From Cellulophaga omnivescoria (lineage in GTDB: Bacteria > Bacteroidota > Bacteroidia > Flavobacteriales > Flavobacteriaceae), in NCBI RefSeq assembly GCF_001999725.1, contig NZ_MDDP01000023.1:1-64000 (forward strand): 64,000 nt of DNA, in the 5' to 3' direction. Under the pieces are notes generated by a model. The model had not been told where the DNA came from, made no database searches, and saw only the letters and a list, made by a program, of their open reading frames with translations. Positions 18,998-48,368 of the stretch are shown one piece after another. The translations under genes were made by a program, and so were the position numbers. Every line of letters begins with the position of its first letter. Position 1 is the first letter of the stretch.

Positions 18998-19057
18998 AGG
19001 TTAAGGTTTTTTGTTTTGGGGAAAAGGCTATAGGTTTTTTACCATAACTTTCTGATA

Positions 19058-19128
19058 CAAAGGTACTATGCTTATGCAACTAAAAAGTTGATCGTAAGGT
19101 CAATAACCATTTTCTGTAGACGAATGGT
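19058..19128 (-). promoter_or_regulatory. Promoter and LytTR-type operator of the REC-GT2 gene
   Basis: Read on the minus strand, TACCTTTG (19058-19065) is a perfect TAnnTTTG element. Exactly 49 bp upstream of it is the 14-mer ACCATTCGTCTACA (TGTAGACGAATGGT on the plus strand, 19115-19128). A weak partner sharing G and AAT positions lies 21 bp closer, at 19094-19107. AACCATT (19105-19111) and AATGGTT (19123-19129) also form an inverted repeat. The divergent GT-C-like gene starts 86 bp to the right and may share this site. Confidence 0.75.
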
Positions 19129-19213
19129 TTTATAAGTGAGTTAACATACATTATTTATAATACCACAATATGCTTATCTTTATCTTGTTTTATATTCTTA
19201 CAGGTTTAAATTT

Positions 19214-22200
19214 ATGAAGAGAACCAATATTTTATTAATATTAGCTCTTATTGTTGGTGTTGCTTTCCATGGGTCTAGTATTTTCTTTACGTTAGAAAAT
19301 ACATATGACGCTCTAATTCACCTGTTTTTTGCCGATCACTACGCTAATAGTTGGTTTGAGCCTTGGGATTACAGGTGGTACACAGGTTTTACTGTACAAG
19401 CTTATCCTCCTTTAGTACACCAATTAATAGGTCTTTTATCTTACATAGGTGGCCTAAAGTTTGGGATGTTTACAGTTGCACTGCTTGCAATTATTTTATT
19501 TATAACTGGTGCTTACAGGTTTGGGTTACTCATAACTGCTAATAGGCGCGTTGCCGGATACACTGCGTTATTAGCTGTTTTTTCTTCTACATTTATAGAA
19601 ACCCTACATATATTTGGACAATTACCTAGTATTATGGGATTGTCTATACTACTACACAGTATACCTGAAATTTATTTATGGATAAAAGAGGGTAAAATTA
19701 GATACTTAGTTACTAGTTTATCATTAATAGCAGTAACAGTTACCTCTCATCATGTTACGCCAATTTTTGGTATGGTATTTTTTATATTTCCACTTATTGG
19801 TATGGTCATAATGGATACTGCCAAAGACAAAGTAAAAGATACTAAGGCTATACATTTAAAAACATTTATTTGGGCTTTTAAAAAACTATTTTGGCGTATT
19901 GTAATATTTGGGTTTTCATCATTACTACTAATTATATTCTGTATTTTGCCATACTGGGTAAATTCTAAAAAAAACCCTATAACTCAAGTTCCTATTCCGC
20001 ACGGCTCTAGAGACAATTTTTTAGAGGTTTTGTCTTCTGGCTTGGTATTTTTTATGATTCCTTGGGGCATATTGCTATTTATATTGCCGTATATTTTTTA
20101 TAGATATTACAGTAAACGTTACTTATTTTTTGGGTTATCATTTACTATGTTAACCATTTTAGGTACTGGTGGTACAACACCAATACCCTTAAAATTATTA
20201 GGAGAAACTGCCTTTAACATTTTAACATTAGACCGTTTTACTCTTTGGGCCACAATTATGGCACTGCCAATATTTGGAGAGTTTGCTTACAGAATGATTG
20301 AGGGTGATTTAAAAAACAATATCCAGAAAAGGTTTGGAGCTGTATACCACAGAATTGTTGGTGGTTTTTTTATGGTTGGCATATTATTTATGGTAATTTT
20401 TACAATGAGTTTGGGCTATTTTAGACCATCACAACCAGCAAAAATTAAAATGCTACCTATTGTAAATTTTTTAAATCAGGATCAGCATGACCATTGGCGT
20501 TACTTAACACTTGGCTTTGGAGACCAAATGGCTTGGTTATCTGCACAAACAAAAGCAATGACTGTAGATGGCAATTACCACTCTGCACGGCGACTACCAG
20601 AGCTAACAACAAGAGCTATAGAACGTTTAGAAAACTCAAAATTTAGAGGCGTAGAAGGTATTGGATCCTTACAGCAATTTTTAACGGTACCAGAAAAATA
20701 CAATTTAAAGTATATTTTTTCTAACGATAAATTTTATGATCCCATACTATACTTTTCTGGCTGGCAACGTTTGCAACAGTTAGAAAATGGTATTATGGTT
20801 TGGGAAAAACTAAATGTGCCACCTATACCCGCAATTATACCCAAAGAAGATGTACCAACATTTTTAAAAATAATGTGGAGTACTATACCGGTTTTAACCA
20901 TTTTACTTGCATTTATTATTAATATACAAATGGTATGGTATAGAACCTTAAAGTCTAAAAAACTAGCGTTACCTTCTTATTTAAAGTATAAAATAGAATA
21001 CACAAAATTCTCTAGTGGCTTAGTAACTATTAACCATTTTTGGGCATTTATTGTTATGGTTTGTTTGTCTTATGGCGGATATTTATTTTATGTAGAAAAC
21101 AGCACGCAATTATCGGCCAAAAATGTAGTTACTGCCTATTATGACGCTGTAGATTTTAAAGAGTTTGAAAGGGCTTATTCATACATTAACCCAGATGATG
21201 GTGTTAGCCTATCTCAGTATATGTTAGAAATTTCTGTTACAGACGGTATTCTAAGTTCTTATGCCAAGTTAGATTCTATTGGAATTTCATACGTAAATAA
21301 AACAGAGAAAAGTGCAAAAGTAAAAGTAGATACCAGGTGGATTACGCCTTTGGATGCTGTAGAGAAAACATTTTATCATACCGTAAAAAAGAAAAGGAAT
21401 AAATGGTATTTAAGCGTTTCTAAATTAGATAACGATTTACCTCCAGACCAATTGTTTACAGACAACGCTACCACTTTTTTTAACCATGGTAGACGTAAAA
21501 TAACAACAGAACAAACACACCATGAAGATGTATTAAAGCAACCTGTTTTAGAAGTATTAACCGCTAAACTTATAAAATACAACGGCAGGTATAGTATTAT
21601 TGGACAAATACAAAACGTAGACAATGTACCGTCTGATGTTGTTATAAAAGGAACTCTTTACAATGATGAAAATAAAGAATTAGCCAATTATAACGCTAAA
21701 GACAATATTAAGCACAAGCTAATGCCAAAAGAAATTACTGCTTTTAAAATTAATTTTGAAGGTATTGCATGGTCCTCTACAAAAGATACATTACCTCCAA
21801 CATTTAATCCGGATGAGTTTACACCTATTAATTTAGATGAAATACCAACAAAGTTTAATTTACAATGCGCCGGCAACGTTGCCAATACAGATTTATATAA
21901 AAAATTATCTGTGCAAGAATTAAACTTTACAAATACCACAATGAACGGTACACTTTTTAATTCTGGTGTGCAAGAAGTTACTATACCTCAACTACTAATT
22001 TCTTATTATGATAATAACAAAAAACTAGTGTGGGTAGATCATAATTTTTTATCTGAAGGTGTACGTATACAACGAAAACAACATTTTAATTATAACCTGC
22101 TAAACCTTAGTAATTTAAAAGTTATTAGTGATGATATGACAAATTGTTTTGTAAACGGCTCTCCTAACATAGAAATAGCTAAAAAAATGTTTCCTGACAG

Positions 22201-22300
22201 AAAACACAACCATATGTTTGAACAATTGCAAGAACAAAAAGGAGATGGTTATAATTTTATAAGATTAGAAGTTAATAGTTACATTGGCAACCCAAAATAA
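19214..22300 (+). CDS. Large GT-C-like integral membrane protein with periplasmic NTF2-like domain
   Basis: A 1028-residue protein. Residues 1 to about 620 hold some twelve or more hydrophobic spans. The first periplasmic loop contains acidic residues (Asp32, Asp41, Asp52) in YDALIHLFFADHY and EPWDYRWYTG, as in GT-C glycosyltransferases that use lipid-linked sugars; similar proteins are often annotated as 6-pyruvoyl-tetrahydropterin-synthase-related membrane proteins. Residues about 636-745 look like an NTF2-like fold (NVVTAYYDAVDFKEFERAYS), followed by a beta-rich tail. The downstream lipoprotein starts 2 bp after the stop. Inferred role: transfer of sugar from a polyprenyl phosphate onto the exopolysaccharide at the periplasmic face. 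Confidence 0.65.
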   Translation: MKRTNILLILALIVGVAFHGSSIFFTLENTYDALIHLFFADHYANSWFEPWDYRWYTGFTVQAYPPLVHQLIGLLSYIGGLKFGMFTVALLAIILFITGAYRFGLLITANRRVAGYTALLAVFSSTFIETLHIFGQLPSIMGLSILLHSIPEIYLWIKEGKIRYLVTSLSLIAVTVTSHHVTPIFGMVFFIFPLIGMVIMDTAKDKVKDTKAIHLKTFIWAFKKLFWRIVIFGFSSLLLIIFCILPYWVNSKKNPITQVPIPHGSRDNFLEVLSSGLVFFMIPWGILLFILPYIFYRYYSKRYLFFGLSFTMLTILGTGGTTPIPLKLLGETAFNILTLDRFTLWATIMALPIFGEFAYRMIEGDLKNNIQKRFGAVYHRIVGGFFMVGILFMVIFTMSLGYFRPSQPAKIKMLPIVNFLNQDQHDHWRYLTLGFGDQMAWLSAQTKAMTVDGNYHSARRLPELTTRAIERLENSKFRGVEGIGSLQQFLTVPEKYNLKYIFSNDKFYDPILYFSGWQRLQQLENGIMVWEKLNVPPIPAIIPKEDVPTFLKIMWSTIPVLTILLAFIINIQMVWYRTLKSKKLALPSYLKYKIEYTKFSSGLVTINHFWAFIVMVCLSYGGYLFYVENSTQLSAKNVVTAYYDAVDFKEFERAYSYINPDDGVSLSQYMLEISVTDGILSSYAKLDSIGISYVNKTEKSAKVKVDTRWITPLDAVEKTFYHTVKKKRNKWYLSVSKLDNDLPPDQLFTDNATTFFNHGRRKITTEQTHHEDVLKQPVLEVLTAKLIKYNGRYSIIGQIQNVDNVPSDVVIKGTLYNDENKELANYNAKDNIKHKLMPKEITAFKINFEGIAWSSTKDTLPPTFNPDEFTPINLDEIPTKFNLQCAGNVANTDLYKKLSVQELNFTNTTMNGTLFNSGVQEVTIPQLLISYYDNNKKLVWVDHNFLSEGVRIQRKQHFNYNLLNLSNLKVISDDMTNCFVNGSPNIEIAKKMFPDRKHNHMFEQLQEQKGDGYNFIRLEVNSYIGNPK

Positions 22301-22302
22301 GC

Positions 22303-25087: not shown

Positions 25088-25106
25088 GGCTTAACCTCAC
25101 CATAAT

Positions 25107-26378
25107 TTATTTTACTAAAAGCTCTACTGCTTCTCTTTCTTTCTCCATCTCTCTTTCTTTTTCTCTTTCTGCTATAATAGTATCAATACTTATGCTACCT
25201 GATTTAGCCATTTGTATTGCTGCAAAATAATCTACATACATTTGTGTAATATCAGACATTGGTAAAGAACAAGCCGCTTTATAGTTTGCTTTACTTAACT
25301 GTTCACGGTAATCATCATAAGTGATAATATTTTCTATTGCATCTGCTAAAGATTCTGCACTTTCTGGCTCAAAAAACTCACCTTTATATCCTTCTTCCTT
25401 AACTAATATACTTAAGTCTCCTAAGTCTGGTAACGCAACTGCTTTACCATAACTACCTGCTTGGTGTAAAACACCAGAGCTACCTGTTGTTGATGTATAA
25501 GGAAAAACAACAACAGCACTTTCATTAAAAATAACAGGTACATCCTCTTCTGCAACATAACCAGTAAATCTTAGTTGATCTACGTGTTCATATTTTTTGC
25601 TCACTTCATTTAAATAACCTGGTGTGTTTGGGCTATCTGTACCTGCTATTACAATCTCTATATCTTGTTTTGTACGCTTACGAATAATTTCTACTGCGTC
25701 TATTAAAATTTCTACTTTTTTATAAGTTCCAAATTTTCCAAAAGCCATAACTTGCTTAGGTCCTTTTGGTAATTCATATGTTGGTTCTGGTGGTGTTTCA
25801 AAAGCTCCGTGAGGAATTAAAGCGACATTTCTAGAGTTATACTTACCCTCTAAAATAGTTTTATATTTACTAATTGTTACCGCCAAAATATCTGATCCTA
25901 AAATTACTTTAGTTAATGTAGCTCCAATAAAATTGTATGCCTTTTTAAGAAAACTGCTTTTGGTTATTCCTGCATTTTCTAAATCTACCTGCTCCAAAAT
26001 ATTGTGTAATAAAGATATTGTTGGTATACCCTTTAATTTGCAAATTAATGGTAACATTAAACCTAACGCAGCTGGTACTTTTTTATCTCCAAATTTTAAA
26101 AACTGAAGGTTAAACAACACTGCGTCTGGCTTAGTGTCTGCAATTGCGCCCATGATACCAAAAACATTTTTGTAGCTATTAAAACTCCAACATTCTTTAA
26201 CTGTAATTTTACAGCCTTCTTCTGTAAAAGAAAGGTCTTTTGCTTCTTTGGTTTTGTCTGTAATTAAGACTATTTCTGTTACTTCTTTTTGTAGTCTAAA
26301 ATGTTTTACCAAGTGGTATCCGTATTCTGTTAAAGTTACTTTACTTGGTGGGTACGCTGTTACAATTGCTAATTTCAT
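25107..26378 (-). CDS. Glycosyltransferase family 4 (GT-B fold), exopolysaccharide locus
   Basis: A 423-residue cytoplasmic GT-B glycosyltransferase. The N-domain opens KLAIVTAYPPSKVTLTEYG; the C-domain has the GT4 hallmarks VMAFGKFGTYKKVEILIDAV (about residues 218-238), DQLRFTGYVAEEDVPVIF and the nucleotide-sugar-binding VVVFPYTSTTGSSGVLHQAG with a later EP-E segment (FFEPESAESLADAI). A charged EREKEREMEKERE tail may be a coiled coil. It is a single-gene unit with its own operator-bearing promoter. The leader holds AACTTAACCT directly before the ATG, complementary to the small RNA loop. By position it is the polymerising or assembling enzyme, analogous to PelF. Confidence 0.85.
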   Translation of the reverse strand: MKLAIVTAYPPSKVTLTEYGYHLVKHFRLQKEVTEIVLITDKTKEAKDLSFTEEGCKITVKECWSFNSYKNVFGIMGAIADTKPDAVLFNLQFLKFGDKKVPAALGLMLPLICKLKGIPTISLLHNILEQVDLENAGITKSSFLKKAYNFIGATLTKVILGSDILAVTISKYKTILEGKYNSRNVALIPHGAFETPPEPTYELPKGPKQVMAFGKFGTYKKVEILIDAVEIIRKRTKQDIEIVIAGTDSPNTPGYLNEVSKKYEHVDQLRFTGYVAEEDVPVIFNESAVVVFPYTSTTGSSGVLHQAGSYGKAVALPDLGDLSILVKEEGYKGEFFEPESAESLADAIENIITYDDYREQLSKANYKAACSLPMSDITQMYVDYFAAIQMAKSGSISIDTIIAEREKEREMEKEREAVELLVK

Positions 26379-26419
26379 AAGGTTAAGTTTTAATAATTTA
26401 TTTGGGATAAATTGTTATA

Positions 26420-26490
26420 CAAATATCCGTCTTAAAGCCTTATTTAATAGCTGTTTAGAGGTAAAATACCAATTACTGTAGACGAATGGA
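26420..26490 (-). promoter_or_regulatory. Promoter and LytTR-type operator of the GT4 gene
   Basis: On the minus strand GATATTTG (26420-26427; 7/8 match to TAnnTTTG) lies exactly 49 bp from the operator copy TGTAGACGAATGGA (26477-26490, plus-strand orientation). A weak partner occupies 26456-26469. The predicted leader is about 35 nt and contains CCCAAAT and AACTTAACCT. Beyond the operator and the terminator at 26615 I see nothing else in this 307-bp spacer. Confidence 0.72.
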
Positions 26491-26684: not shown

Positions 26685-27920
26685 TTATATGTTTCTTTTT
26701 GATGAAAAATAAAGTAGTTGTGCAAAAAGTAATGCTAACATTACTATAATTTGTAATTGTACTACCATAGCTAAACTGCTATGAAAAAATACTATTAGTC
26801 CTATTTGTGATAACCCTAACACACCTGATAATATTACAGGCACATAATAGTCTAGAGATAAAAAATAGTAAGCAAAAATATTAGAGATAGCAAAAAGTGA
26901 TGTTGCTAGTGCGTATTGCCATAATAATGATGACATTGATAAATATGCATCTCCAAACATTAGTGTTATAATTGTTTCTGGAAAAAGGTAACATACGGCA
27001 ACTATAGTTACAGATAATAAGCTAATATAACCTACATATTTAAATAAAACAGGAGCTGTTCGTTTTCCTTCTTTACGTTTTTCTATTACTGCTGGCAACA
27101 GTAACATTACAAACATCCAAGCTACAAAGTACACAACTCTACCTATTAAAGCTAAAGATGCGTAAAGTCCTGCATCTAAAGAATTAAAATAATGCTTTAC
27201 AAGTAACACATCACTATTATTTATAATAATTTGTGTAAGCTCATAACCAGCTGTAAGCAGTATAAATGTGGTAACTTTCTTTTTATTTTCTGAGGTTAAA
27301 ATCTTAGATGCTGCAAAAGATATTTTTTTAAATTTTATTGGCATTAACCCAAAAACAAAAGAGACAACTATACCCACAGCTACTAAAAAAGCTGAGTTCA
27401 TTGGCACCAATAATAGCAAAGCCAATGTAACTAACAATCTGCTCCACATTTCAGATTGATATGTTACAGATAAATTAGTATAATTTTGTTTTCCTTGGTA
27501 CTTACCTCTTTTTATAGACATTACAAAATAAAGAGGAATACCTACAGCAAATACTCTAAACATTGCTACAGATTCTGTATTAAATAACTGCTGTAAATTA
27601 TTTGCAAATAAAAATAATAATGCTCCTATGGCAACACCAAAAATAACTGCATATTTCTGCATGTAATTTTCAAAAGCCTTCCATTGGTTGCCAGTAAATA
27701 AAATATTAAATTTAGTAGTCACCAATTGAAAAGTCATTCCTACAAAAGAAAGCACTAACAATAATGTTATTAGTAATGCAGCATCTGCAAAAGCAGCTGG
27801 CCCTAACATACGTCCTAGTACTAAATTATATAGGTAGTTACCTCCATTTACAACAAGTACACTTGTCATAAAAATTTGTTCTGGAGTTATTTTTTTATTT
27901 ACAAAACTAAACGCGGTCAT
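26685..27920 (-). CDS. Polysaccharide flippase-like membrane protein (MOP/PST superfamily)
   Basis: A 411-residue protein with about twelve hydrophobic spans. The N-terminus shows the PST-type pattern NYLYNLVLGRMLGPAAFADA (about residues 28-47), in which LGPxxFAD is typical of Wzx/PelG-type lipid-linked oligosaccharide transporters; a charged loop SIKRGKYQGKQNY follows mid-protein. It would move polymer or lipid-linked sugar across the inner membrane. The start overlaps the 3' end of the STAS gene by 14 bp, so the two are translationally coupled. In combination with GT4 and the TPR porin it recalls PelG. Confidence 0.85.
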   Translation of the reverse strand: MTAFSFVNKKITPEQIFMTSVLVVNGGNYLYNLVLGRMLGPAAFADAALLITLLLVLSFVGMTFQLVTTKFNILFTGNQWKAFENYMQKYAVIFGVAIGALLFLFANNLQQLFNTESVAMFRVFAVGIPLYFVMSIKRGKYQGKQNYTNLSVTYQSEMWSRLLVTLALLLLVPMNSAFLVAVGIVVSFVFGLMPIKFKKISFAASKILTSENKKKVTTFILLTAGYELTQIIINNSDVLLVKHYFNSLDAGLYASLALIGRVVYFVAWMFVMLLLPAVIEKRKEGKRTAPVLFKYVGYISLLSVTIVAVCYLFPETIITLMFGDAYLSMSSLLWQYALATSLFAISNIFAYYFLSLDYYVPVILSGVLGLSQIGLIVFFHSSLAMVVQLQIIVMLALLFAQLLYFSSKRNI

Positions 27921-28209
27921 TGCTTAAGATATAAGATGTGTTAGACATTTCCATAATAGAAGCAATTTTTTTATTCTCCTGTCCAACAATAGCTAATACT
28001 TTGTTGTTTTTTGCAACTTTAACGTACAACTGCTCTAACTGCTTTGCGCTAGAGTACATTATGTTAGTTACACTATCTAGAGATAAAATTAATTTTTCAT
28101 TACCTTTTAAGTAATAGTCTATATGGCTTTTAAGTGTTTTCATATTCTGAGAGTTAAGGTTGCCCTTTACTTCCATAAAATTGTTAATTTGATTTATACG
28201 TAATGCCAT
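27907..28209 (-). CDS. STAS-domain protein (anti-sigma-factor-antagonist-like)
   Basis: A 100-residue stand-alone STAS domain: INNFMEVKGNLNSQNMKTLK, then LILSLDSVTNIMYSSAKQLE, in which the Ser pair near residues 53-54 occupies the place of the phosphorylatable Ser of SpoIIAA-like proteins, then a VLAIVGQ strand. No SpoIIAB/RsbW kinase or PP2C phosphatase is encoded in the window, so the partner is unknown; a regulatory role on the overlapping flippase or the GT4 enzyme is possible. It heads a two-gene unit with an operator-bearing promoter. The leader carries TAGGTTAAGTT (plus strand 28223-28233), an 11-nt match to the small RNA loop. Confidence 0.8.
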   Translation of the reverse strand: MALRINQINNFMEVKGNLNSQNMKTLKSHIDYYLKGNEKLILSLDSVTNIMYSSAKQLEQLYVKVAKNNKVLAIVGQENKKIASIMEMSNTSYILSNDRV

Positions 28210-28250
28210 AATATTGGGGTTTTAGGTTAAGTTTACATGATTTGTTACAG

Positions 28251-28321
28251 CAAATATCTTTTATTAAAAAAGGAAAAAGTGCCCAGTGTAGACGGTTGGT
28301 TATTTACTGTAGACGAATGGT
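28251..28321 (-). promoter_or_regulatory. Promoter and tandem LytTR-type operator between STAS and TPR-porin genes
   Basis: Two direct repeats with a 21-bp period: TGTAGACGGTTGGT (28287-28300) and TGTAGACGAATGGT (28308-28321). On the minus strand GATATTTG (28251-28258) is 49 bp from the second copy, matching the other promoters. On the plus strand TAAATTTG (28340-28347), a perfect TAnnTTTG, lies 18 bp beyond the repeats, facing the TPR-porin gene. The site therefore probably activates in both directions. Confidence 0.78.
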
Positions 28322-30556: not shown

Positions 30557-31279
30557 TTATAAAAGGTTTAATCTTCTCATTAATTCTGGTCGGTTAGATC
30601 TACTAATGGGTACTACATTTTTTTCAATAAGCACACTATTGTCTTCTATATCTACAATTTTAGTAAAGTTAATTATGTAAGACCTATGTATTTGTAAAAA
30701 TAATTTTTCTGGTAACTTATCCTTAATTTTTTTTAAGGTATTACGCACTCTGTAGTTTTCCTTTGTTGTTTTAACCTCTATATAATCTCCTTTAGCTTCA
30801 ATAAGTTGTATATCATTAAAGTTAATTTTTATTAAACGCCTATCTATATTAATATAAAGCTCTTCACCTAAAGAGCTATTACTATTAGTAGTGTTATTAG
30901 AAACCGTTTCTGGTTCTGGGGATTTTGCAAGTGCAGCTTTTACTTTTTGTATAGATTTATTAAAACGATCTTGAGTTACTGGTTTTACTAAATAATCTAC
31001 AATTGCCTCGTATTCATATGCTTCAATAGCAAAATTAGTATCTGAGGTTGTTAAAACAATTTTTGGCGGATTTTTTAATGTTTGTACAAAATCAAAACCA
31101 CTAAAACCTGGCATATGTATATCTAAAAAAATAACATCTACTGTATTCTGGTTTAAAAATTTAATGGCCTCCATTGCACTTCCAAAAGCGTCTATAACCT
31201 CTAACTCTTTTACGTTAGAGCAAAGCTGTGCAACTATTAACCTAGCTGTTGCCTCGTCGTCTACTATAATACAATTCAT
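30557..31279 (-). CDS. LytTR family response regulator
   Basis: A 240-residue LytTR-type regulator. The receiver (1-118) has the DDE acidic cluster at 7-9, phospho-acceptor Asp53 (FLDIHMPGFSGFDFV), Thr in VLTTSD and Lys in LVKPVT. A polar linker (NNTTNSNSS) leads to the LytTR DNA-binding domain (about 140-240; IDRRLIKINFNDIQLIEAKG, FLQIHRSYIINF). LytTR proteins bind direct repeats of a roughly 9-bp site with about 21-bp period. The complement of the 14-mer in the locus promoters (ACCATTCGT...) matches 8 of 9 positions of the published consensus, so this is the natural candidate to bind them. It is the last gene of the signalling operon. Confidence 0.9.
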   Translation of the reverse strand: MNCIIVDDEATARLIVAQLCSNVKELEVIDAFGSAMEAIKFLNQNTVDVIFLDIHMPGFSGFDFVQTLKNPPKIVLTTSDTNFAIEAYEYEAIVDYLVKPVTQDRFNKSIQKVKAALAKSPEPETVSNNTTNSNSSLGEELYINIDRRLIKINFNDIQLIEAKGDYIEVKTTKENYRVRNTLKKIKDKLPEKLFLQIHRSYIINFTKIVDIEDNSVLIEKNVVPISRSNRPELMRRLNLL

Positions 31280-31282
31280 AGT

Positions 31283-31600
31283 TTAAATGGTTTTTAGGTA
31301 GGTTGTTATTCTTTCTAAAATCAATTTAAATTCATCATGTAAATCATAAGTACCTTTTAACAGTTGTTCTTCATAAGTTACTGCTAAACCGTACGCCTTT
31401 TCTAAACCAAGAATATTAAATTTATGTTTTAATTTATGTACTATTTCTGCAGAGGCTTTATTGTCTTTAGCCATAATAGCATTAATATATGTTTGGTTTT
31501 CATCTGGAAACTCACTTTTAATAATACTTATAAATTGATTTAAAAATTCGGTATTACCATCTGCTAGTTTATGTACGTAATTTAGGTTGGGCTGCTCCAT
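31283..31600 (-). CDS. Histidine phosphotransfer (Hpt) domain protein
   Basis: A 105-residue stand-alone Hpt domain with the phospho-accepting His55 in EIVHKLKHKFNILGL, the HxLKxxxxxxG pattern. It would relay phosphate between the kinases and the receivers (LytTR regulator, CheY-like protein or REC-GT2). It lies 3 bp upstream of the LytTR gene and 1 bp downstream of a histidine kinase gene, so it is in the same operon and probably feeds the adjacent regulators. Confidence 0.88.
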   Translation of the reverse strand: MEQPNLNYVHKLADGNTEFLNQFISIIKSEFPDENQTYINAIMAKDNKASAEIVHKLKHKFNILGLEKAYGLAVTYEEQLLKGTYDLHDEFKLILERITTYLKTI

Positions 31601-31601
31601 A

Positions 31602-32663
31602 TTAGTCTTTTTTTATGGTAAAATAAAATATTGTTCCTTTATTCTCTTTGGAGTCTACCCAAATTTTACCTCCATAGAAAGTTACAATTTTTTCTACTAA
31701 TGCCAAGCCTATTCCGTTAGATTCTACATCATTATCTAACTTTTTAAACATTTCAAATATTTTATTTAAATATTTTTCTGGTATTCCCTTTCCGTTATCG
31801 GTAATACTAAATTGCCAAAAATTATCACTATCTGTAACATCTACAGTAACAATACCGCGTTCTAGATACTCTGTTGCCTTAATGGCATTAGTTAGTAGGT
31901 TCATGAAAAGTTGCTCTAATCTATATTTATCTAAAAATAAGGTAGGTAAATTTTCTGCTACTTTTACAGTAACGTTTTTAGGGATATAAATAGTGCTCTT
32001 TATCTCTTTTAAAAGTGATGAAATATCTACGTTGCTTTTAGACTCTTCATTGTTACCTATTGTTGCATGCTTTAAAATACCACTAACAAGATTATCCATT
32101 TTTACCAGGTTTTGAGATATTAAATCGCAATTATTAAGACTATCTACTGTAAACTTGTGTTTTTCCTCTTCTACAATCCAACTCATAAGCGTATTAATAT
32201 TACGCATAGGAGACTTAAGATCATGGGAAACTACGTGGGCGTAATTGTTTAAAGATTTATTTTGCTCCTCTAAGTCTTTAACTAATTTATCTTTTTCTTT
32301 AGTTACTTGAGCAATATACTCTGCTTGTTTACTAATATGCTGAGCTAATTTTTGTGCACTAACTATATTGTTTTTAGAATGTACTATATTTTCTGCGTTA
32401 TCTAAATTTAAGTTAAGACTATTAACTGCTTGCTCTAAGGCTTGTAATGTTTTTTTTTGTTGTTGTGCTTCTTGTGCTAATTCTATATTTGCAGCCTTTA
32501 ACTCTTGTGCACTTATGGTAGTTGCACGCTGTATCATTGCAATTTTATCATCATAATCATCGTAAGACTTTTCAATTGCATTAAAAAGCTTTTCTAAATT
32601 AGGATTACCTTTTAACTCCTCTGGCAAATTTTTACGTATTTGTCTTTTTAAAAGTGAATGCAT
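31602..32663 (-). CDS. Soluble sensor histidine kinase
   Basis: A 353-residue cytoplasmic kinase with no transmembrane segment or PAS domain. Residues about 50-140 are a long coiled coil, followed by the HisKA box with His147 (VVSHDLKSPMRNIN) and a HATPase_c domain (NLLTNAIKATE, DNGKGIPEKYL, SNGIGLALVEKIV). I chose the ATG at 32663 because it overlaps the FIST stop as TAATG; an in-frame ATG at 32711 lies inside the FIST gene. This coupling, plus the lack of its own sensor, suggests that the FIST protein supplies the signal, as NosP does for NahK-type kinases. Confidence 0.88.
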   Translation of the reverse strand: MHSLLKRQIRKNLPEELKGNPNLEKLFNAIEKSYDDYDDKIAMIQRATTISAQELKAANIELAQEAQQQKKTLQALEQAVNSLNLNLDNAENIVHSKNNIVSAQKLAQHISKQAEYIAQVTKEKDKLVKDLEEQNKSLNNYAHVVSHDLKSPMRNINTLMSWIVEEEKHKFTVDSLNNCDLISQNLVKMDNLVSGILKHATIGNNEESKSNVDISSLLKEIKSTIYIPKNVTVKVAENLPTLFLDKYRLEQLFMNLLTNAIKATEYLERGIVTVDVTDSDNFWQFSITDNGKGIPEKYLNKIFEMFKKLDNDVESNGIGLALVEKIVTFYGGKIWVDSKENKGTIFYFTIKKD

Positions 32664-33796
32664 TACTCGCTTATTAAAGTTAAAGTCATTGTTTGGTTGT
32701 GCAACATACACGCATTGTTACCCTCAAAAGGAGCCATTTCTCCGTAAGAGTAATACCCTATAATTTTAGCCTGATTGCCTATTACATCTAGAACTTCTTC
32801 TACCTCTTCTTCAGTTCTTTGGTCCATAACTAGTTTACGACCAATACAACTTACTAGTAATGCTAATTGCGCAGTATGTTCTCTATTTCTAGTAGCATAT
32901 TTTGCTGCAATACTTGCTCCTTCTGCAATATCATCTACAGTAGACATCATTAATTGTACTGTAGAACCTTGCGGAACATCACCAGCTAATATCATTGTAT
33001 TTGTGTCTTCATCTATATTTAAAATAGTGCGCACAATGGGCTGTGCGTCATCATTAGTTTTAACACTTAATGGATATAATAATGCAGATTTTGGTAACTC
33101 CTTAGCTTTATCTCCTAAATACTTTTTATAAAGGTCTAATGCTGGTTTACCGTCTAGTTCATATAAAATATTACCTTTAGATTTGGTTATAATACGTTCT
33201 GGACCAAAGCCGGTCCAGCCACCATAATTTGCGCTAGTAATCTCTAATGTTTTACCATAAAAACCTATAGCCACAATTTCGCCTTCTTTAGGTTTGCTGT
33301 TATAAGATACAAGTGTTTTCTCAAACCTGTCATCATCTCCGCACAAACCACCAGACAAACCAATAGTTATGTGTTTTTCCTTTTCTATTCCTTCTATTAA
33401 AGCACTGCCATTTACCGTACTTCCTTCAGAAATTATATAAATGTGTTTTAAATCTTTTTTAGGAAACTCTTCAATTAGGTTAGACCCTAAGTCTAGCTCA
33501 TTATAATTAAAATCTTTAACGTTTTTACTTTTTACCAAATAAGAAGATTTTTCAAACTCTATGGCAGTTAAAACTATAGTATTTTCCCACACTTTATCTC
33601 CAACTATTTCTCCTGAAGTACTCCCAAAAACAATATTTCCGTTAGGAAACATTTCTTTAATTTCTTCATATAGGTTTTCTTCTTCTAGTAATAACCTATT
33701 ACCGAAGACTAAAACTAAAGGATTTTCCAATTTTTTTTTATCGGTTATAAAAATAAAATTTGCGCCTTTTTCTTTTTTTGCTTGTACTATTTTCAT
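32663..33796 (-). CDS. FIST domain sensor protein (NosP-like)
   Basis: A 377-residue protein with FIST N and C domains: an N-part with VLVFGNRLLL, GNIVFGSTSGEIVGD and the GLSGGLCGDDDRF stretch, and a C-part with PLSVKTNDDAQPIVRTI, a GDVPQGSTVQLMM strand and ALLVSCIGRKLVM near the end. FIST is a ligand-binding sensory domain; some members (NosP) bind heme and sense nitric oxide. I cannot identify a heme ligand here. It sits directly upstream of a sensorless kinase with overlapping stop and start codons. Confidence 0.85.
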   Translation of the reverse strand: MKIVQAKKEKGANFIFITDKKKLENPLVLVFGNRLLLEEENLYEEIKEMFPNGNIVFGSTSGEIVGDKVWENTIVLTAIEFEKSSYLVKSKNVKDFNYNELDLGSNLIEEFPKKDLKHIYIISEGSTVNGSALIEGIEKEKHITIGLSGGLCGDDDRFEKTLVSYNSKPKEGEIVAIGFYGKTLEITSANYGGWTGFGPERIITKSKGNILYELDGKPALDLYKKYLGDKAKELPKSALLYPLSVKTNDDAQPIVRTILNIDEDTNTMILAGDVPQGSTVQLMMSTVDDIAEGASIAAKYATRNREHTAQLALLVSCIGRKLVMDQRTEEEVEEVLDVIGNQAKIIGYYSYGEMAPFEGNNACMLHNQTMTLTLISE

Positions 33797-33805
33797 AACT
33801 AAAAA

Positions 33806-35788
33806 TTAATTTTCTAGATCTTTTTTTAACGTAAAAAAGAATTTTGTTCCTTTCCCAAGCTCACTCTCTACCCATACTTTACCTTCATAACGGTCTACAA
33901 TTTTTTTAACAATTGATAAACCTATACCTGTAGAACGTTCATTATCTCCTATTGATTGAAAAATCTCGAATATTTTTTTGTGAAATTTTTCTGGGATGCC
34001 AACACCATTGTCTTCAATACAAAATTGCCAGTACTCTGGTTCTTCTTTAAAAAGCACCTGAACCAAACCCTTTTCTGCTTCTATGTGTACTACGGCATTG
34101 CCAATAATATTTTGAAATAATTGGTGCATTTTTGTACTATCTGCATTTAAAAGTGGTAATTTTTTAGGCACAACAACTGCTACATGCTCTGGAATATAAA
34201 TACTTTCTTTAATGTCTGTTATAACAGTATTTAGGTCTACTTTACTGGTAGACATTTGTGCACTACCAGCTGTAGAGTATTCTAAAATTCCGTGAATTAG
34301 CTTGTCCATAAATGCAACTTTTTCTTGCATTAATGTTAGGTTTTGCACACCTGCCTCATCTAAAACATCTTTATAATCTTCATAAGTCCACGTAGCTAAC
34401 GCACTAATACTGCGCAACGGAGATTTTAGATCATGAGACACTATATGGGCATATTCTTGCAAACCATCATTACTAATTTTAAGCTCTTTTAATAATTGCT
34501 CCTTTTGTAGCTCTAATTCTTTTTGCTCTGTAATATCTAAATGTATACCTATAGAACCTACTACCTTGCCTTCTTCATTATAATTTGGAGCGCCACTAAC
34601 AAGCCAGTGCCTTGTTTCTCCTTTTTTATTCTTTATTTTAATTTCATAGGAGTCTGAGATTCCTTTTAACCTATTTTCAGATTTCTTTTCTATTTTCTCT
34701 GAGTTTTTAATCTTCAAAATTTCAACAGCATCTTCTCCTAAAAGTTCATCTTTAGAGTAGCCACTCATTTTACAAAAGCTCTGGTTTACAAGTTGAATTT
34801 CATTATCTATGGTAACTTCTACCATACCTAAATTCATATTAGCAATAATACCTCTGTACTTTTCTTTTTCTGCTTTTATTTTTTCCTCTGCTTGGCGCTC
34901 TTTAGTAATATCCTCAATTACACAAACTTGGTACTCTACTTTACCTTCGTTGTTTTTAACAGCACTTATACTTGTTTTAGCTAAAATTTGAGCTCCATTT
35001 TTTTTAAAAAATCTTTTTACGGTAGAATAATTATCTATTAAACCAGCATTTAAATCAGACTCTAACTTTTTTGTTATTACTTCATCCTCAGATTCCGATA
35101 TGTCTGACAGTTTTAGTTTATTTGTTACATTTTCTGGGTAACCTAATAGGGCGGTAAATGTGGCGTTACACTTTATTATTTCATCATTAACAGTAAGTAC
35201 AATACCTAGTGGTGAGTTTTCTACAATTATATCTAATTGCCTTTTTTGCTCACTTAGCATTTCTTTAATTTCTGTTTCTTTACTAATATCTCTAATAATA
35301 CCTTGGGCTCCTATTGGTTTTTGGTGCTTATCATAAATTACACTGGTGTTTATTTGCACCCATTTACGCGTACCATCTTTAGTAATAATTTTAGATCTAT
35401 AATTTTTTAATGTACCTATCTGCATTAATGTTTTAAAAGACTCTATTGTATACTGTACAAAATCTGGGTGTACTAACTTTGGCAGGTTAATTGTTTCTTT
35501 AGTATTATCATAGCCTAAAAATTCTCGTGCAGAATTATTCATGTTAACAACATTAAAGCTTAGATCCATAACAACGTATGGGTCTATAATATTAACAAAA
35601 CCACCATCTAATTGAGAGGTAGTTTCTGTTAATAAGTTCTCTAATTTATTATTAGCTTGTTTAAGGTGTAGGGTAGTATCAAAAAGCTCTTTAGATTTTA
35701 CTTCTAATATTTTTTCTGCTTGTAATCTTGCTTTTTTTTGTCTTTCTAACGCCTTTTTAAGTAATAAAATTTCTTTGTTACTATCCAT
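33806..35788 (-). CDS. Multi-PAS sensor histidine kinase
   Basis: About 660 residues, soluble. An N-terminal coiled coil (residues 1-55) is followed by three PAS domains (about 60-180, 185-305 and 310-430; the third contains GEDAVEILK and the PAC segment GETRHWLVSGAPNYN), then HisKA (IVSHDLKSPLRSIS) and HATPase_c (FQNIIGNAVVHIE, DNGVGIPEKFH, STGIGLSIVKKIV). The ATG at 35788 overlaps the H-NOX stop by 8 bp; another in-frame ATG is at 35803. The adjacency suggests H-NOX gates this kinase, the usual arrangement for bacterial H-NOX proteins. Confidence 0.88.
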   Translation of the reverse strand: MDSNKEILLLKKALERQKKARLQAEKILEVKSKELFDTTLHLKQANNKLENLLTETTSQLDGGFVNIIDPYVVMDLSFNVVNMNNSAREFLGYDNTKETINLPKLVHPDFVQYTIESFKTLMQIGTLKNYRSKIITKDGTRKWVQINTSVIYDKHQKPIGAQGIIRDISKETEIKEMLSEQKRQLDIIVENSPLGIVLTVNDEIIKCNATFTALLGYPENVTNKLKLSDISESEDEVITKKLESDLNAGLIDNYSTVKRFFKKNGAQILAKTSISAVKNNEGKVEYQVCVIEDITKERQAEEKIKAEKEKYRGIIANMNLGMVEVTIDNEIQLVNQSFCKMSGYSKDELLGEDAVEILKIKNSEKIEKKSENRLKGISDSYEIKIKNKKGETRHWLVSGAPNYNEEGKVVGSIGIHLDITEQKELELQKEQLLKELKISNDGLQEYAHIVSHDLKSPLRSISALATWTYEDYKDVLDEAGVQNLTLMQEKVAFMDKLIHGILEYSTAGSAQMSTSKVDLNTVITDIKESIYIPEHVAVVVPKKLPLLNADSTKMHQLFQNIIGNAVVHIEAEKGLVQVLFKEEPEYWQFCIEDNGVGIPEKFHKKIFEIFQSIGDNERSTGIGLSIVKKIVDRYEGKVWVESELGKGTKFFFTLKKDLEN

Positions 35789-36323
35789 TCTGGGTAATGT
35801 CAAATTTTACTTCAGTACCGTTTTCATTTAAAAGTTTGTATGTAACTGTTGCACTACTATTAAAATGTTCAAAAGATTTTTCAATTAAACCGTGTGCAAG
35901 TTGGTATAATCCTCTACTAGAAGAATATACCATAGAAATAGAAGTATCTGTCTTTTCTAAAATTTTAAACGTAGGTAATTCTGCGTCAGGATATAGTTTT
36001 TTAACGTGTACGTGTATGTGGTCTTCTATAGAGTAAATTAAGCTTAGCGGTGAGCTATAACTTTTTATAACATCTGGATGTGCTTTGGCTAAGCCATCAA
36101 ATAAAAATAAACCAAAAGCATATATTAAATCTCCTACAGGTGTTTTTACCTCAGAGCTTAAACTGGTAATAAGACTTACCATTTCGTTAAAATTATACGT
36201 TCCAACAGAGGTATAAATTCCTTCTGATGGTAAATTAGAATTTTCAATTATAGTGTCTACAGTTTCTAATCCAAACTTTGACTCCACCATTTCTAAAAAT
36301 TCTGTAAATACAACTCCTTTCAT
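35781..36323 (-). CDS. H-NOX heme NO/O2-binding sensor
   Basis: A 180-residue H-NOX domain of full length. The proximal heme ligand is predicted as His104 in DHIHVHVKKLYP, aligning with the His of the DALHDHL motif in guanylate cyclase; the signature YxSxR is present as Y133-S135-R137 in VYSSSRGL. Heme-bound nitric oxide (or O2) changes the activity of a partner, commonly an adjacent histidine kinase, as here. I have not judged the distal pocket, so the NO versus O2 preference is open. It lies 78 bp after the CheY-like gene in the same operon. Confidence 0.9.
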   Translation of the reverse strand: MKGVVFTEFLEMVESKFGLETVDTIIENSNLPSEGIYTSVGTYNFNEMVSLITSLSSEVKTPVGDLIYAFGLFLFDGLAKAHPDVIKSYSSPLSLIYSIEDHIHVHVKKLYPDAELPTFKILEKTDTSISMVYSSSRGLYQLAHGLIEKSFEHFNSSATVTYKLLNENGTEVKFDITQNG

Positions 36324-36401
36324 AACTAGACATTTAGAGTTGTAAAAGTAAGAAAAAGGATACCTAGACTGTAATTTTTGTTGTGAAAGCTGTTAAAATT
36401 A

Positions 36402-36803
36402 CTAGCCTTTTACTAGTTCATTGTTGTCCCAGTAGTTTAAAACGCTTTGTAACTTAGTTTCATATTCCTCATATTTTAGAGGTTTTATTACATAACCAGC
36501 AATTCCTATTTTATAACACTCTAGCAAATCTGCTCTATTTTCTGATGTGGTTAAAACTATTGTTGGTAAAAATCTAAGCTTTTCATCTGCTTTTAAAACA
36601 CTTAAAAATTCTATGCCACTCATCCTTGGCATATTTAGGTCTAATAAAATTATATCTGGTAATGTATTGCCAGATTGTAGTATATCTAGAGCTTCCTCAC
36701 CGTTTTTTGCTTCGGTGATATTATGTTTTAATTGAAGTTTGGAGATGGTTCTCTTCAGCTTCATTGTCTCGATCATGTCATCTTCAATAAATAAAATATT
36801 CAT
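36402..36803 (-). CDS. CheY-like single-domain response regulator
   Basis: A 133-residue receiver-only protein with the acidic pair at 8-9 (FIEDD), phospho-acceptor Asp55 (ILLDLNMPRMSG), Thr in VLTTSEN and Lys in VIKPLKYEE. It resembles Rcp1-type receivers that serve as phosphate sinks or relay partners. It is the promoter-proximal gene of the signalling operon, whose promoter bears the conserved operator, implying autoregulation. Confidence 0.9.
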   Translation of the reverse strand: MNILFIEDDMIETMKLKRTISKLQLKHNITEAKNGEEALDILQSGNTLPDIILLDLNMPRMSGIEFLSVLKADEKLRFLPTIVLTTSENRADLLECYKIGIAGYVIKPLKYEEYETKLQSVLNYWDNNELVKG

Positions 36804-36823: not shown

Positions 36824-36915
36824 CAAATGTAATATCTCATTTTTAATTAAATTTTATTGTAAAGTTGAATAGTAATTTAGTGTAGATGAATGGTAGTTTT
36901 CTGTAGGTGGATAAA
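36824..36915 (-). promoter_or_regulatory. Promoter and LytTR-type operator of the signalling operon
   Basis: On the minus strand TACATTTG (36824-36831) is a perfect TAnnTTTG element. The operator copy TGTAGATGAATGGT (36881-36894) is exactly 49 bp away. Partners with 21-bp period flank it: TGTAGGTGGATAAA (36902-36915) and a weaker TAAAGTTGAATAGT (36860-36873, 9 of 14 matches). The leader is only about 13-14 nt and, unlike the three structural-gene leaders, lacks the CTTAACCT segment. Confidence 0.75.
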
Positions 36916-36985
36916 TTTGCACATTTAACCAACATCTGAAACCCCCTTTAAAACGCAGGAAAACCCGATGAAATGCACGGTTATC

Positions 36986-39721: not shown

Positions 39722-39733
39722 GGGTTAAAAATA

Positions 39734-42456: not shown

Positions 42457-42461
42457 AATTT

Positions 42462-45657: not shown

Positions 45658-45665
45658 TAAATTTG
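45658..45665 (+). promoter_or_regulatory. -7 element of the superoxide dismutase promoter
   Basis: TAAATTTG matches TAnnTTTG and lies 38 bp before the ATG at 45704. Because it falls inside the longer open frame beginning at 45635, it supports the internal start for the dismutase. Confidence 0.6.
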
Positions 45666-45703
45666 AGCTACGACATTTTTTTAACTTAAAAATAGATATA
45701 ATT

Positions 45704-46312: not shown

Positions 46313-46330
46313 AATAATACACTTAAAAAC

Positions 46331-46365
46331 AAAAAAGCCGCTCTTAATTTAGAGCGGCTTTTTTT
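46331..46365 (+). terminator. Terminator after superoxide dismutase
   Basis: A strong stem AAAAAAGCCGCTCT / AGAGCGGCTTTTTT with loop TAATTT and a T7 tract lies 18 bp after the stop. Confidence 0.9.
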
Positions 46366-46393
46366 ATGTTTTTTATTTACAAAATTTTATAAA

Positions 46394-46470
46394 ATAGAAA
46401 AGGGCAGAGAAGTCTCCACCCTTTTCGTCCCAAATCTTACCATAAACTTAACCTACTTATGCTATGGCTC
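46394..46470 (-). ncRNA. Predicted small RNA, copy 1 of 4
   Basis: About 75 nt on the minus strand. It has a TAATTTAG -7-like box (46473-46480, 7/8 match), then a conserved core starting CCATAGCATAAGTAGGTTAA with a short CCAT/ATGG stem, a single-stranded ATTTGGGA segment, and a terminator stem GGGTGGAG / CTCTGCCC followed by T4. It is the most divergent copy (GTTTATGG in place of GTTCATGG). It lies in the 407-bp gap between superoxide dismutase and the metalloprotease, which otherwise holds only terminators. Confidence 0.65.
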
Positions 46471-46592
46471 TGCTAAATTACTGGTATTGTGTCTAATAAA
46501 AAAAAAAATCTGCAAAAAAATTAACACAATAATACATTATTTTGCAAATAACATCGATGAAATGCACCCTAATAGCTTGATTACAAGCAAAC

Positions 46593-46620
46593 AAAAAGAC
46601 GAAGTTTCCTTCGTCTTTTC
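46593..46620 (-). terminator. Terminator after the metalloprotease gene
   Basis: The stem AAAAGACGAAG / CTTCGTCTTTTT with loop GAAA (minus strand) lies about 100 bp beyond the metalloprotease stop. Its stem resembles those of the small RNA copies, but no conserved core precedes it. Confidence 0.75.
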
Positions 46621-46719
46621 TCCAAAAACCAACTAGAAATTCAACTCAAAAATCCCATAGTTTTGTTAAAATTTTAGTGCTAATTAAAAAATTATACTAA
46701 AGTAGGTGTTCATAAATTT

Positions 46720-47616
46720 TTAATCTAGATTAAAATATTCATCATCTGTCATTTCTCCGCTTCTAATATTTTGCAATTCTTTAGCGTAAGAACGTATATA
46801 CTTATCTAACTCTGGATTAAAAAATTCAGATTTTTCTTGCTTGTAAGAACCATTTAAAACCCCATTGTAATAATAAAAGAAATTATAGTCAAAACTAGCT
46901 GCGTTTAAATCGTAAGCTCCTAATAAAAAACCTAACCTAACAGCAGATCGTCTTTGGTAATTTCTGCCGTGGTGCCCTGGACTTGTTGTGTTGTTATCGC
47001 CAATAGACGCTGCAAACTCGTAAGCAGTTGCAATTTGAGAAAAACTGGTTTTATTATATCCATTAGGTCTTCTTAAATAGTAACCAGCCATACCATCTGC
47101 CTCTAATTCTGCAGCTCTTGCTGTAGACTCATTTTTAGATGGGTAACCATAAGTAAATTGTAATTGGTGCGCAAACTCATGTGCCAAAATCATTACATTA
47201 GCTATTTGACCTTGAGCCTTTGCTGCATTGTAAATTGCCTCTCCGTAATAAATTTTACCACTACCATAAGATATTGCGTTATAAGTAGAGTTAGGATTGG
47301 AGTTGTCTTTTACAAAACTTAAAGGTACTGCTGGCCTTCCCCATACTGCTGCTATTCTAGAATTTTGAGTTTGCATAAAGTTTGTCTCAGAAGATGTACC
47401 TATTGAACTGCTTAAATAAGCAGTACTACTCCAGTTACGATCTACATAACCACATTCATGCAACTCATCTTCAAAAGCTTCAGCAATAGCTAATTCTTTT
47501 ACTTCTGCAACTTCTGTTTCTGCCTCAAAGGTCTCAGTATCTTTAGAACAAGACTGTAAAACTGCGACAAAAGTTAACCCTAATAGGTAGGTTCTTTTAA
47601 AATTTAAGTTTTTCAT
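46720..47616 (-). CDS. Putative zinc metalloprotease lipoprotein
   Basis: A 298-residue secreted lipoprotein (signal peptide ending VAVLQSC, Cys23). The zinc site is HExxH in ILAHEFAHQLQ (His146, Glu147, His150) with a downstream Glu in ELEADGMAGYYL, the arrangement of the neutral zinc metallopeptidase (YpfJ-like) group. A C-terminal region (about 215-298) with several aromatic residues has no motif I recognise. It is probably an envelope peptidase; the substrate is unknown. It is flanked on both sides by the predicted small RNA genes, all on the same strand. Confidence 0.72.
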   Translation of the reverse strand: MKNLNFKRTYLLGLTFVAVLQSCSKDTETFEAETEVAEVKELAIAEAFEDELHECGYVDRNWSSTAYLSSSIGTSSETNFMQTQNSRIAAVWGRPAVPLSFVKDNSNPNSTYNAISYGSGKIYYGEAIYNAAKAQGQIANVMILAHEFAHQLQFTYGYPSKNESTARAAELEADGMAGYYLRRPNGYNKTSFSQIATAYEFAASIGDNNTTSPGHHGRNYQRRSAVRLGFLLGAYDLNAASFDYNFFYYYNGVLNGSYKQEKSEFFNPELDKYIRSYAKELQNIRSGEMTDDEYFNLD

Positions 47617-47822
47617 AATTAATATTTTATTGATTATTAGTTAACACAATATTAGTAAATATTTTCTTACTAATTATGAAATATTAAACAAAAATTAACA
47701 ATACACATATAACTATCGGATTACTAGAGTATTAGTTGTAAAAAAAATGATTATAATTAAAAAGTATTAATAATGAGTAAGTTGGAAACAACTAAAAGAA
47801 AAGAATTTACAAATATGGTATA

Positions 47823-47897
47823 AAATAAAAAGGCGAAGTTCCCTTCGCCTTTTTCCCCAAATCTTACCATGAACTTAACCTACTTATGCTATGGTGA
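47823..47897 (-). ncRNA. Predicted small RNA, copy 2 of 4
   Basis: Minus strand. A perfect -7 box TACATTTG (47901-47908) is followed 5 bp later by ACCATAGCATAAGTAGGTTA..., an ACCAT/ATGGT stem whose loop exposes AGGTTAAG, an unpaired ATTTGGGG, and the terminator GGCGAAG / CTTCGCC with T5. The core is identical to copy 3. Confidence 0.75.
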
Positions 47898-48017
47898 TAA
47901 CAAATGTATATTAATTATATAATGCAATAAACAATATTAGTTAAACTAAAGAGTTTACTAGACTAAGTGTTTTTTATATATTTATTAAAAGGAATTGAAT
48001 TTCAGGAAAGTAGTTAA

Positions 48018-48092
48018 AAATAAAAAGGTAGAGTTTCCTCCACCTTTTTCCCCAAATCTTACCATGAACTTAACCTACTTATGCTATGGTAC
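48018..48092 (-). ncRNA. Predicted small RNA, copy 3 of 4
   Basis: Minus strand. Perfect -7 box TATCTTTG (48095-48102), 4 bp before ACCATAGC. Same core as copy 2; terminator stem GGTGGAG / CTCTACC with loop GAAA. The stem has changed in sequence from copy 2 while keeping its pairing. Confidence 0.75.
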
Positions 48093-48193
48093 GGCAAAGA
48101 TAACTTAAGTTTATATCTAGTTCCTAAAGTATCGGATTAACGCCCATTTCATCAGTTTAACTACATATAATCCGATGAATGACACTGCATAAA

Positions 48194-48267
48194 AAATAAA
48201 AAGGCGGAGTTTCCTCCACCTTTTCCCCAAATTTTACCATGAACTTAACCTACTTATGCTATGGTTT
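48194..48267 (-). ncRNA. Predicted small RNA, copy 4 of 4
   Basis: Minus strand. Perfect -7 box TAATTTTG (48271-48278), 5 bp before ACCATAGC. Core differs by one base (AAAATTTGGGG). Terminator stem GGTGGAG / CTCCGCC with loop GAAA and T5. The segment TTTGGGGAAAAGG is perfectly complementary over 13 nt to the leader of the REC-GT2 mRNA. Copies 2-4 fill the 752-bp spacer between the metalloprotease and the PurF-like gene; I see no protein gene there. Confidence 0.75.
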
Positions 48268-48368
48268 TCACAAAATTAGTTATGTGTACACCCTTTAGCG
48301 CTATAAAAAAGGTAAAACGCATATATTACCGACAAAATACACTATTATATGCATTTCATCGATACTAT

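Follow-up and report, generated by a model that had tools for sequence, protein, structure and literature searches.

A multicopy small RNA in Cellulophaga omnivescoria, its predicted mRNA partners and a candidate decoy RNA

A stretch of 64,000 nucleotides from the genome of Cellulophaga omnivescoria (contig NZ_MDDP01000023.1, positions 1 to 64,000), here called the window, carries four copies of a small RNA (sRNA) element together with an exopolysaccharide (EPS) locus. We consider it likely that the element is a trans-acting base-pairing sRNA which, with a decoy RNA encoded beside mnmA, acts on mRNA leaders of the EPS and gldK type. The conservation of the sRNA and decoy elements, their pairing potential and the conservation of the leaders in the lineages named below are supported by sequence comparison, and from these we infer transcription, repression, the decoy effect and a role in surface life.

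In the proposed mechanism, the four copies would yield an sRNA of ~70 nt with a 5' hairpin carrying UAGGUUAAGUU, an open linker AUUUGGG and a terminator, which would pair with mRNA leaders at or just upstream of the AUG. The predicted target leaders in this genome are those of three EPS mRNAs, gldK, a PorP/SprF gene and a LuxR-type response regulator. By covering the start site, the sRNA would block initiation and repress translation, so that slime and gliding or type IX secretion system (T9SS) functions would be held back until the sRNA is removed. The trans-encoded RNA beside mnmA, which carries the loop complement CUUAACCUA and CCCAAAU, would titrate the sRNA as a decoy.

The sRNA copies and their conservation in the Flavobacteriaceae

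The four copies share the core AUAAGUAGGUUAAGUU, and at up to three mismatches they are the only places in the 3.8-Mb genome where the 22-nt core occurs. A covariance model (R1) was built from them, and the copies and one possible relative are as follows.

46397..46470, minus strand: sRNA copy, type B, with a distinct upstream region containing CACAATACCAGTAATTTAG and the type B promoter consensus; 88.9 bits with R1, a score that is not independent, as this copy is itself among the four in the model
47826..47897, minus strand: sRNA copy, type A, found with R1, with a TAnnTTTG-like box upstream
48021..48092, minus strand: sRNA copy, type A, found with R1
48197..48267, minus strand: sRNA copy, type A, found with R1 (copy 4 of an earlier note on this DNA)
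46592..46663, minus strand: possible decayed sRNA relative with a matching terminator, its core lost; 35.4 bits with R1

The predicted fold consists of a 5' hairpin ACCAUAGCAUAAGUAGGUUAAGUUCAUGGU, an open linker AAGAUUUGGGG and the terminator, with predicted accessibilities of 0.59-0.62 for the loop, 0.97-1.0 for the linker and 0.64-0.92 for the leader motif. Among 100 genomes searched, 61 of them from the Flavobacteriaceae, the family of the window, the 16-mer ATAAGTAGGTTAAGTT was present with at most one mismatch in 53 (the window's own genome included). The covariance model matched 51, namely, 50 of the 61 family genomes and 1 genome of another family, the matches in the latter and in one family genome (G032) being weak. 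Positive genomes carry 1 to 6 copies, frequently ~200 bp apart, and the core-bearing genera among the matches listed are Cellulophaga, Maribacter, Zobellia, Arenibacter, Flagellimonas, Winogradskyella, Aquimarina, Salegentibacter, and a few Flavobacterium. The genomic neighborhood is also recurrent: in the first 80 of at least 118 core-bearing stretches, sodA, a UvrD-type helicase gene, purF or pfkB was found in 76, and sodA and purF occurred together in 56.

In an alignment of 129 distinct copies, which was fitted to the model and is thereby biased towards its structure, 11 of the 12 terminator pairs have changed on both sides, and the pairing is intact in 99.7% of the alignment cells, exceeding all 500 shuffles. 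The 11 pairs of the 5' hairpin show no double-sided change (6 are invariant and 4 vary on one side only), which is consistent with pairing and leaves it unproven by covariation. Judged by these family-wide matches and the terminator covariation, the sRNA is a real element. In the upstream regions, a TAnnTT(T/A)(G/C) box is present for 108/142 copies of type A and all 27 of type B (135/169 in total), compared with 153 of 4,000 random control windows; with this box and the covarying terminator, the sRNA is predicted to form a separate gene that has a promoter and a terminator of its own. Type A copies also often have TTCATCTAAAA upstream (at most two mismatches; 54/141, against 31/1,600 control windows), in 46 of the 54 cases at one of two adjacent positions, which makes it a candidate activator site; the paralogues may therefore be regulated differently. 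The near-fixed distance can be seen, for example, at 47897-47970 of the window and in L240-L319, and the type B copy lacks the sequence.

A coding function for the element was rejected, because a one-base indel in the linker among relatives (GGTAGATTT versus GGTAAGATTT) breaks any reading frame across it. No family reached its gathering score in an Rfam 15 scan of the copies; the top match of a permissive scan was STnc40, at 33.5 bits against a cutoff of 45, and it is of the terminator type. A 21-nt inverted repeat around ATCGATGAAATGCA is found at either end of the sRNA array (46546-46566 and 48350-48370), and GATGAAATGCAC is found again near 36967.

Predicted pairing with EPS, gldK and other leaders

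The EPS genes in question and the complements of the sRNA in their leaders are listed below.

17846..18997, minus strand: REC-GT2, receiver domain plus family 2 glycosyltransferase (Pfam)
18997..19005, minus strand: REC-GT2 leader, loop complement CUUAACCUA, its last base being the A of the AUG
19015..19027, minus strand: REC-GT2 leader, linker complement CCUUUUCCCCAAA, 13 nt against copy 4
25107..26378, minus strand: GT4, group 1 glycosyltransferase (Pfam)
26380..26389, minus strand: GT4 leader, loop complement AACUUAACCU, 10 pairs
26400..26407, minus strand: GT4 leader, linker complement UCCCAAAU, seven Watson-Crick pairs plus one G-U
27907..28209, minus strand: STAS-domain protein (Pfam)
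28223..28233, minus strand: STAS leader, loop complement AACUUAACCUA, 11 pairs

The earlier note had proposed that a multicopy trans-acting sRNA controls the translation of these three mRNAs, and its GT4 and STAS loop sites are exact. The REC-GT2 complement is also present, one base from where the note had it (18998-19006): CUUAACCU occupies 18998-19005 on the minus strand and, with the A of the AUG, gives nine pairs. The second segment was found in REC-GT2 and GT4, and the STAS leader contains no CCCAAA; in REC-GT2, the freely available part of the 13-nt match is ~7 nt, because the AAAAGG half of the sRNA segment also serves as the 5' arm of the sRNA terminator. The order of the two segments was correctly described, since CCCAAA-N(4-16)-TTAACC occurs in 2 of 720 leaders, precisely those of REC-GT2 and GT4, and the leader of the regulatory operon (36402-36803) indeed has neither complement.

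These 720 leaders belong to 48 window genes and to 672 genes in an 800-kb sample of the rest of the genome, called by a simple longest-open-reading-frame (ORF) script with ATG starts, some of which may be wrong. The raw count of AGGTTAAG in the window is unremarkable (9 against 4.5 expected; at least 9 in 5 of 100 shuffles), and positional tests alone were therefore used. Within -35 to +3 of the ATG, CTTAACCT is present in 3 of the 48 window genes and in none of the 672 others, where 0.22 would be expected. When the 720 leaders are ranked by the energy of their duplex with the loop-plus-linker core, GT4, REC-GT2 and STAS come 1st, 3rd and 7th; with the loop alone, STAS, REC-GT2 and GT4 come 1st, 6th and 8th. 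In six close genomes (G000, G002, G003, G006, G009 and G015), the motif columns of REC-GT2 and GT4 do not vary, in leaders that are mostly divergent further upstream; the STAS motif is intact in five, and its two changes in G009 still permit G-U pairing. Over all orthologues, shuffled loops paired as strongly in 1/300 (REC-GT2), 1/300 (GT4) and 0/300 (STAS) cases. Thus, complementarity to a conserved seed is found at the initiation sites of predicted targets, at the EPS sites in part of the genomes only.

The sRNA seed also occurs, in the same sense, at the 3' ends of two of the EPS genes.

17837..17848, minus strand: REC-GT2 3' end, UAGGUUAAGGUU, from the stop codon on
25090..25097, minus strand: GT4 3' untranslated region, AGGUUAAG, before the terminator

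Such seeds could reflect 5'-3' pairing or a 3'-derived small RNA, and they raise the possibility that the EPS leaders pair mainly with AGGUUAAG at their own mRNA 3' ends, or with a small RNA cut from them, in an autoregulation that would not involve the sRNA of the sodA-purF neighborhood. We regard this as unlikely, although several observations favor it. AGGTTAAG lies within -30 to +60 of the stop codon in 3 of the 720 genes, 2 of the 48 window genes (both EPS) and 1 of the other 672; the 3' seed is kept in all six close genomes for GT4 and in five for REC-GT2. In addition, UAGGUUAAGGUU is a 12-nt complement of its own leader, a match that ranks 3 of 720 and is reached by only 2 of 3,000 mismatched leader/tail pairs, and G009, which lacks the REC-GT2 3' seed, has the leader AACUUAACCU instead of ACCUUAACCU. 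Against it, the two ends of GT4 match over an unremarkable 8 nt (rank 136 of 720), and STAS shows no such match; G007, G009 and G049 retain the REC-GT2 leader pairing without the 3' seed; and the linker complement, gldK and the decoy are left unexplained. The 3' seed accounts for the spelling of the REC-GT2 leader and not for STAS, gldK or the decoy.

For the trans-acting sRNA, further predicted targets emerge from the genome at large. Of 21 genome-wide sites of AACTTAACCT, four are the sRNA copies and four lie between genes, 1-14 nt ahead of an ORF's ATG: GT4, STAS, a T9SS gene of the PorP/SprF family (L020) and a LuxR-type response regulator (L023). The PorP/SprF leader forms a loop duplex of -17.6 kcal/mol, compared with -13.6 for the best of the 720 leaders. 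In the leader of the LuxR-type regulator, antisense resemblance to the sRNA extends over about 39 nt, with a duplex of -37.5 versus -31.3 for the best of the 720. Nine genomes were scored, and in five of them this leader exceeds every one of the 672 background leaders (not in G008); its alignment score of 39 narrowly surpasses the maximum of 38 in 2,000 letter shuffles of the same leader. The leader of gldK (TIGR03525; type IX secretion and gliding) contains AAUUUAACCUA, which gives 11 pairs including one G-U. UUAACCU is present in the gldK leader of 28 of 33 sRNA-positive genomes (27/30 plus 1/3 further), in none of 15 sRNA-negative genomes, 5 of which are of the same family, and not in the one genome with a weak sRNA match; its background rate is 11/672 leaders, and none of 300 shuffled loops paired as strongly. 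On this comparison, gldK is a better conserved candidate target than the EPS locus.

It is distinctly unlikely, in our estimate, that the leader motif is some other conserved translation or promoter element, for example one bound by a protein, and that the EPS-sRNA match is a coincidence. Such an element could account for a conserved block in gldK that exceeds the sRNA-paired part (UCGAAAUUUAACCUA in most same-genus leaders) and for the absence of the EPS sites from most distant relatives. It does not sit easily with the occurrence of the motif in three leaders of one locus and in none of the 672 elsewhere, with a gldK motif that tracks the presence of the sRNA, with the linker complement in the right order in REC-GT2 and GT4, or with a candidate decoy that copies both segments.

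Several points weigh against a base-pairing sRNA acting on these leaders, and above all against the EPS locus as its purpose. Some pairing is predicted within the upper sRNA hairpin, and loop-leader covariation cannot be shown because the sRNA core is invariant. As to equally strong matches at random genes, the CTTAACCT test found none, whereas by loop alone, ranks 2-5 go to four leaders from elsewhere in the genome (an asparaginase-like protein, a TPR lipoprotein, gldK and a transporter, the names other than gldK being our reading of the proteins), and by plain antisense alignment, four and six of the 672 background leaders match or exceed GT4 and STAS, respectively. The REC-GT2 3' end offers its leader a longer pairing, 12 nt, than the 9 nt available in the sRNA loop. 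As to relatives, the complement is kept in close ones, while it is gone from most distant ones that retain both the sRNA and the gene: strong leaders (-12 kcal/mol or better) number 8/24 for REC-GT2, 5/24 for GT4 and 7/11 for STAS. Beyond the six close genomes, matches occur in G007 and G049 (REC-GT2), G011 (GT4), and G001 and G043 (STAS); within these orthologue sets, G019 and G027 are without the sRNA, and the G004 leader in the STAS set is uninformative because its start is misplaced (a partial match). For gldK, the motif is missing from 5 of the 33 sRNA-positive genomes, the gene was picked from the top of our own scan, so that its conservation is the independent test, and the genomes compared are related and hence not independent cases. 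The pattern of EPS sites fits a recent or patchy recruitment of the EPS locus; the distant loss, which by the earlier note's own standard counts in part against its proposal, weakens the case for that locus as the purpose of the sRNA, and it is probably not the main target. An sRNA able to pair at the EPS start codons, as proposed earlier, is thus well supported by position, rank and conservation in close relatives, and the focus on the EPS locus was incomplete, given an sRNA far more widespread than the locus, a better conserved gldK site, a candidate decoy and the 3' seeds.

A candidate decoy RNA beside mnmA

A search of 20 genomes for the two-segment pattern gave several matches inside genes and, among the others, an intergenic element, G000:C1:127219-127291, which is antisense to both of its neighbors, read by us as mnmA and yidC. 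It consists of UCCCAAAUGUUACUAAGCUUAACCUACUUAGUGCUU followed by a terminator. Its hairpin, ACUAAG-CUUAACCUA-CUUAGU, has a loop that is the exact complement of UAGGUUAAG of the sRNA, and its CCCAAAU mirrors the sRNA linker. A model of the element (R2) was searched against the 100 genomes, and 30 loci were fetched and inspected. Eleven proved to be homologues (G000, G002, G003, G006, G008, G009, G015, G017, G035, G049 and G054), all from sRNA-positive genomes and nine with an MnmA motif within the fetched stretch. The other 19 were rejected as unrelated terminators or tRNA-plus-terminator stretches (duplexes of 12 of them, -4.9 to -21.3), and because of this noise, the R2 tally of 83/100 genomes at E 0.1 is not used. 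With strict filters, R2 found no clear decoy homologue in most sRNA-positive genomes.

The duplexes of the 11 homologues with the sRNA have energies of -30.6 to -43.9 kcal/mol, compared with means of -10.7 to -13.8 kcal/mol and a lowest value of -25.9 for 300 shuffles of each. A separately encoded RNA-like element with extended complementarity to the sRNA seeds is thus present, each homologue lying beyond all of its shuffles. The loop hairpin is not predicted in distant members; the conserved feature is therefore the extended pairing and not a kissing loop. These properties make the mnmA-side RNA a candidate decoy, which would be transcribed and would sequester the sRNA. That the roles are reversed, the mnmA-side element being the main regulator or a trigger of degradation and the multicopy RNA its antidote or target, seems to us very unlikely. 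No stronger pairing was found for the sRNA than this extended complementarity, which is silent on who controls whom; however, only the multicopy RNA can pair with the mRNA leaders, because these share their sense with the mnmA-side element.

Two further sequences deserve mention. CCCAAATCTTATTATCAAATTTAACCTATAAG, which may be a second decoy, lies just before a terminator in an intergenic region at G000:C2:77950 (L390, about 950-1010) and also occurs in G002, and a decoy-like CCCCAAAT...CTAAACTTAACCACTTTAG stretch is found on the minus strand near position 96 of L403 (G012:C79), upstream of the LuxR-type regulator of G012.

A possible wider circuit, known systems and the surrounding locus

The Flavobacteriaceae are a large gliding, T9SS-secreting family in which post-transcriptional control is little known. 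We tentatively suggest a family-wide circuit, possible and short of probable, in which 1 to 6 sRNA copies with two promoter types, a trans-encoded decoy, and targets that include gldK as a T9SS ring gene, a PorP/SprF gene, a LuxR-type regulator and EPS genes would set gliding against slime-based attachment. Within it, the decoy would copy both target segments, with a mirror-image loop in Cellulophaga, and the EPS targets would belong to one Cellulophaga subclade, their mRNAs bearing the sRNA seed at the 3' end as well. Confirmation would establish a new RNA switch for surface life among a large group of marine bacteria. An sRNA of this conservation, with gldK and EPS genes as predicted targets, would offer a handle on how the cells decide whether to move or to stick, and with the candidate decoy in hand, two deletions would put the network to the test.

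The closest likeness is to the FopS family and GibS of Bacteroides thetaiotaomicron, which, as described in the part of PMC11697453 considered here, are likewise from the Bacteroidota, with many near-identical paralogues, an intrinsic terminator, a conserved seed and surface-glycan targets; FopS binds near the start codon of SusC mRNA and represses its translation. According to the same part of that paper, FopS has a single-stranded 5' stretch and targets SusC transporters, whereas the sRNA here has a seed in a 5' hairpin and another in the linker, with EPS and T9SS/gliding genes as predicted targets, and no decoy RNA for FopS is mentioned there. At the Rfam level, the two sequences are unrelated, the sRNA scoring 20.2 bits against a cutoff of 56 for FopS (RF04319; E 4.5 in the permissive scan). 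In Caulobacter, the sponge CrfA titrates the sibling sRNAs SisA-D, as shown by experiment (PMC12559287, in part); this pair, and QrrX versus Qrr as told in that source, resembles our system in combining an sRNA family with a separately encoded pairing RNA. SisA-D/CrfA differ in belonging to another phylum, in being Hfq dependent and in having an anti-Shine-Dalgarno seed, unlike the present one, and the sponge role is a prediction here. Rfp18 of Flavobacterium psychrophilum, in the portion of PMC9723704 used, is likewise a conserved sRNA of flavobacteria, predicted to pair with several functionally related mRNAs; by description, it affects metalloprotease mRNAs and uses a third stem-loop for pairing, whereas the present sRNA has two hairpins. 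One of the 89 Rfp transcripts in that source could be a homologue of our sRNA. In the open-access literature searched, we found no description of this sRNA or decoy and no sRNA-sponge pair in the Bacteroidota, and such a pair would be new to us.

The EPS locus contains one further annotated gene, and it also carries repeats and a sensory operon.

26685..27920, minus strand: flippase-like polysaccharide biosynthesis protein (Pfam), its gene overlapping the end of STAS

Repeats of the GTAGACGAATGG type lie upstream of REC-GT2 (19116-19127), GT4 (26478-26489), STAS (28288-28299 and 28309-28320) and the 36402-36803 regulator (36882-36893), and two of them occur as pairs 21 bp apart. The three exact copies of GTAGACGAATGG in the genome are all in this locus; as a genome-wide motif, it was rejected, one-mismatch copies being no commoner than those of a reversed control (8 versus 15). 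LytTR proteins bind such repeats, and these may be the site of the locus's own LytTR response regulator (30557-31279). The sensory operon at 30557-36803 encodes H-NOX (HNOB), FIST, PAS histidine kinase, second kinase, Hpt-like and LytTR response regulator domains, of which H-NOX and FIST presumably point to nitric-oxide sensing in the control of the EPS locus.

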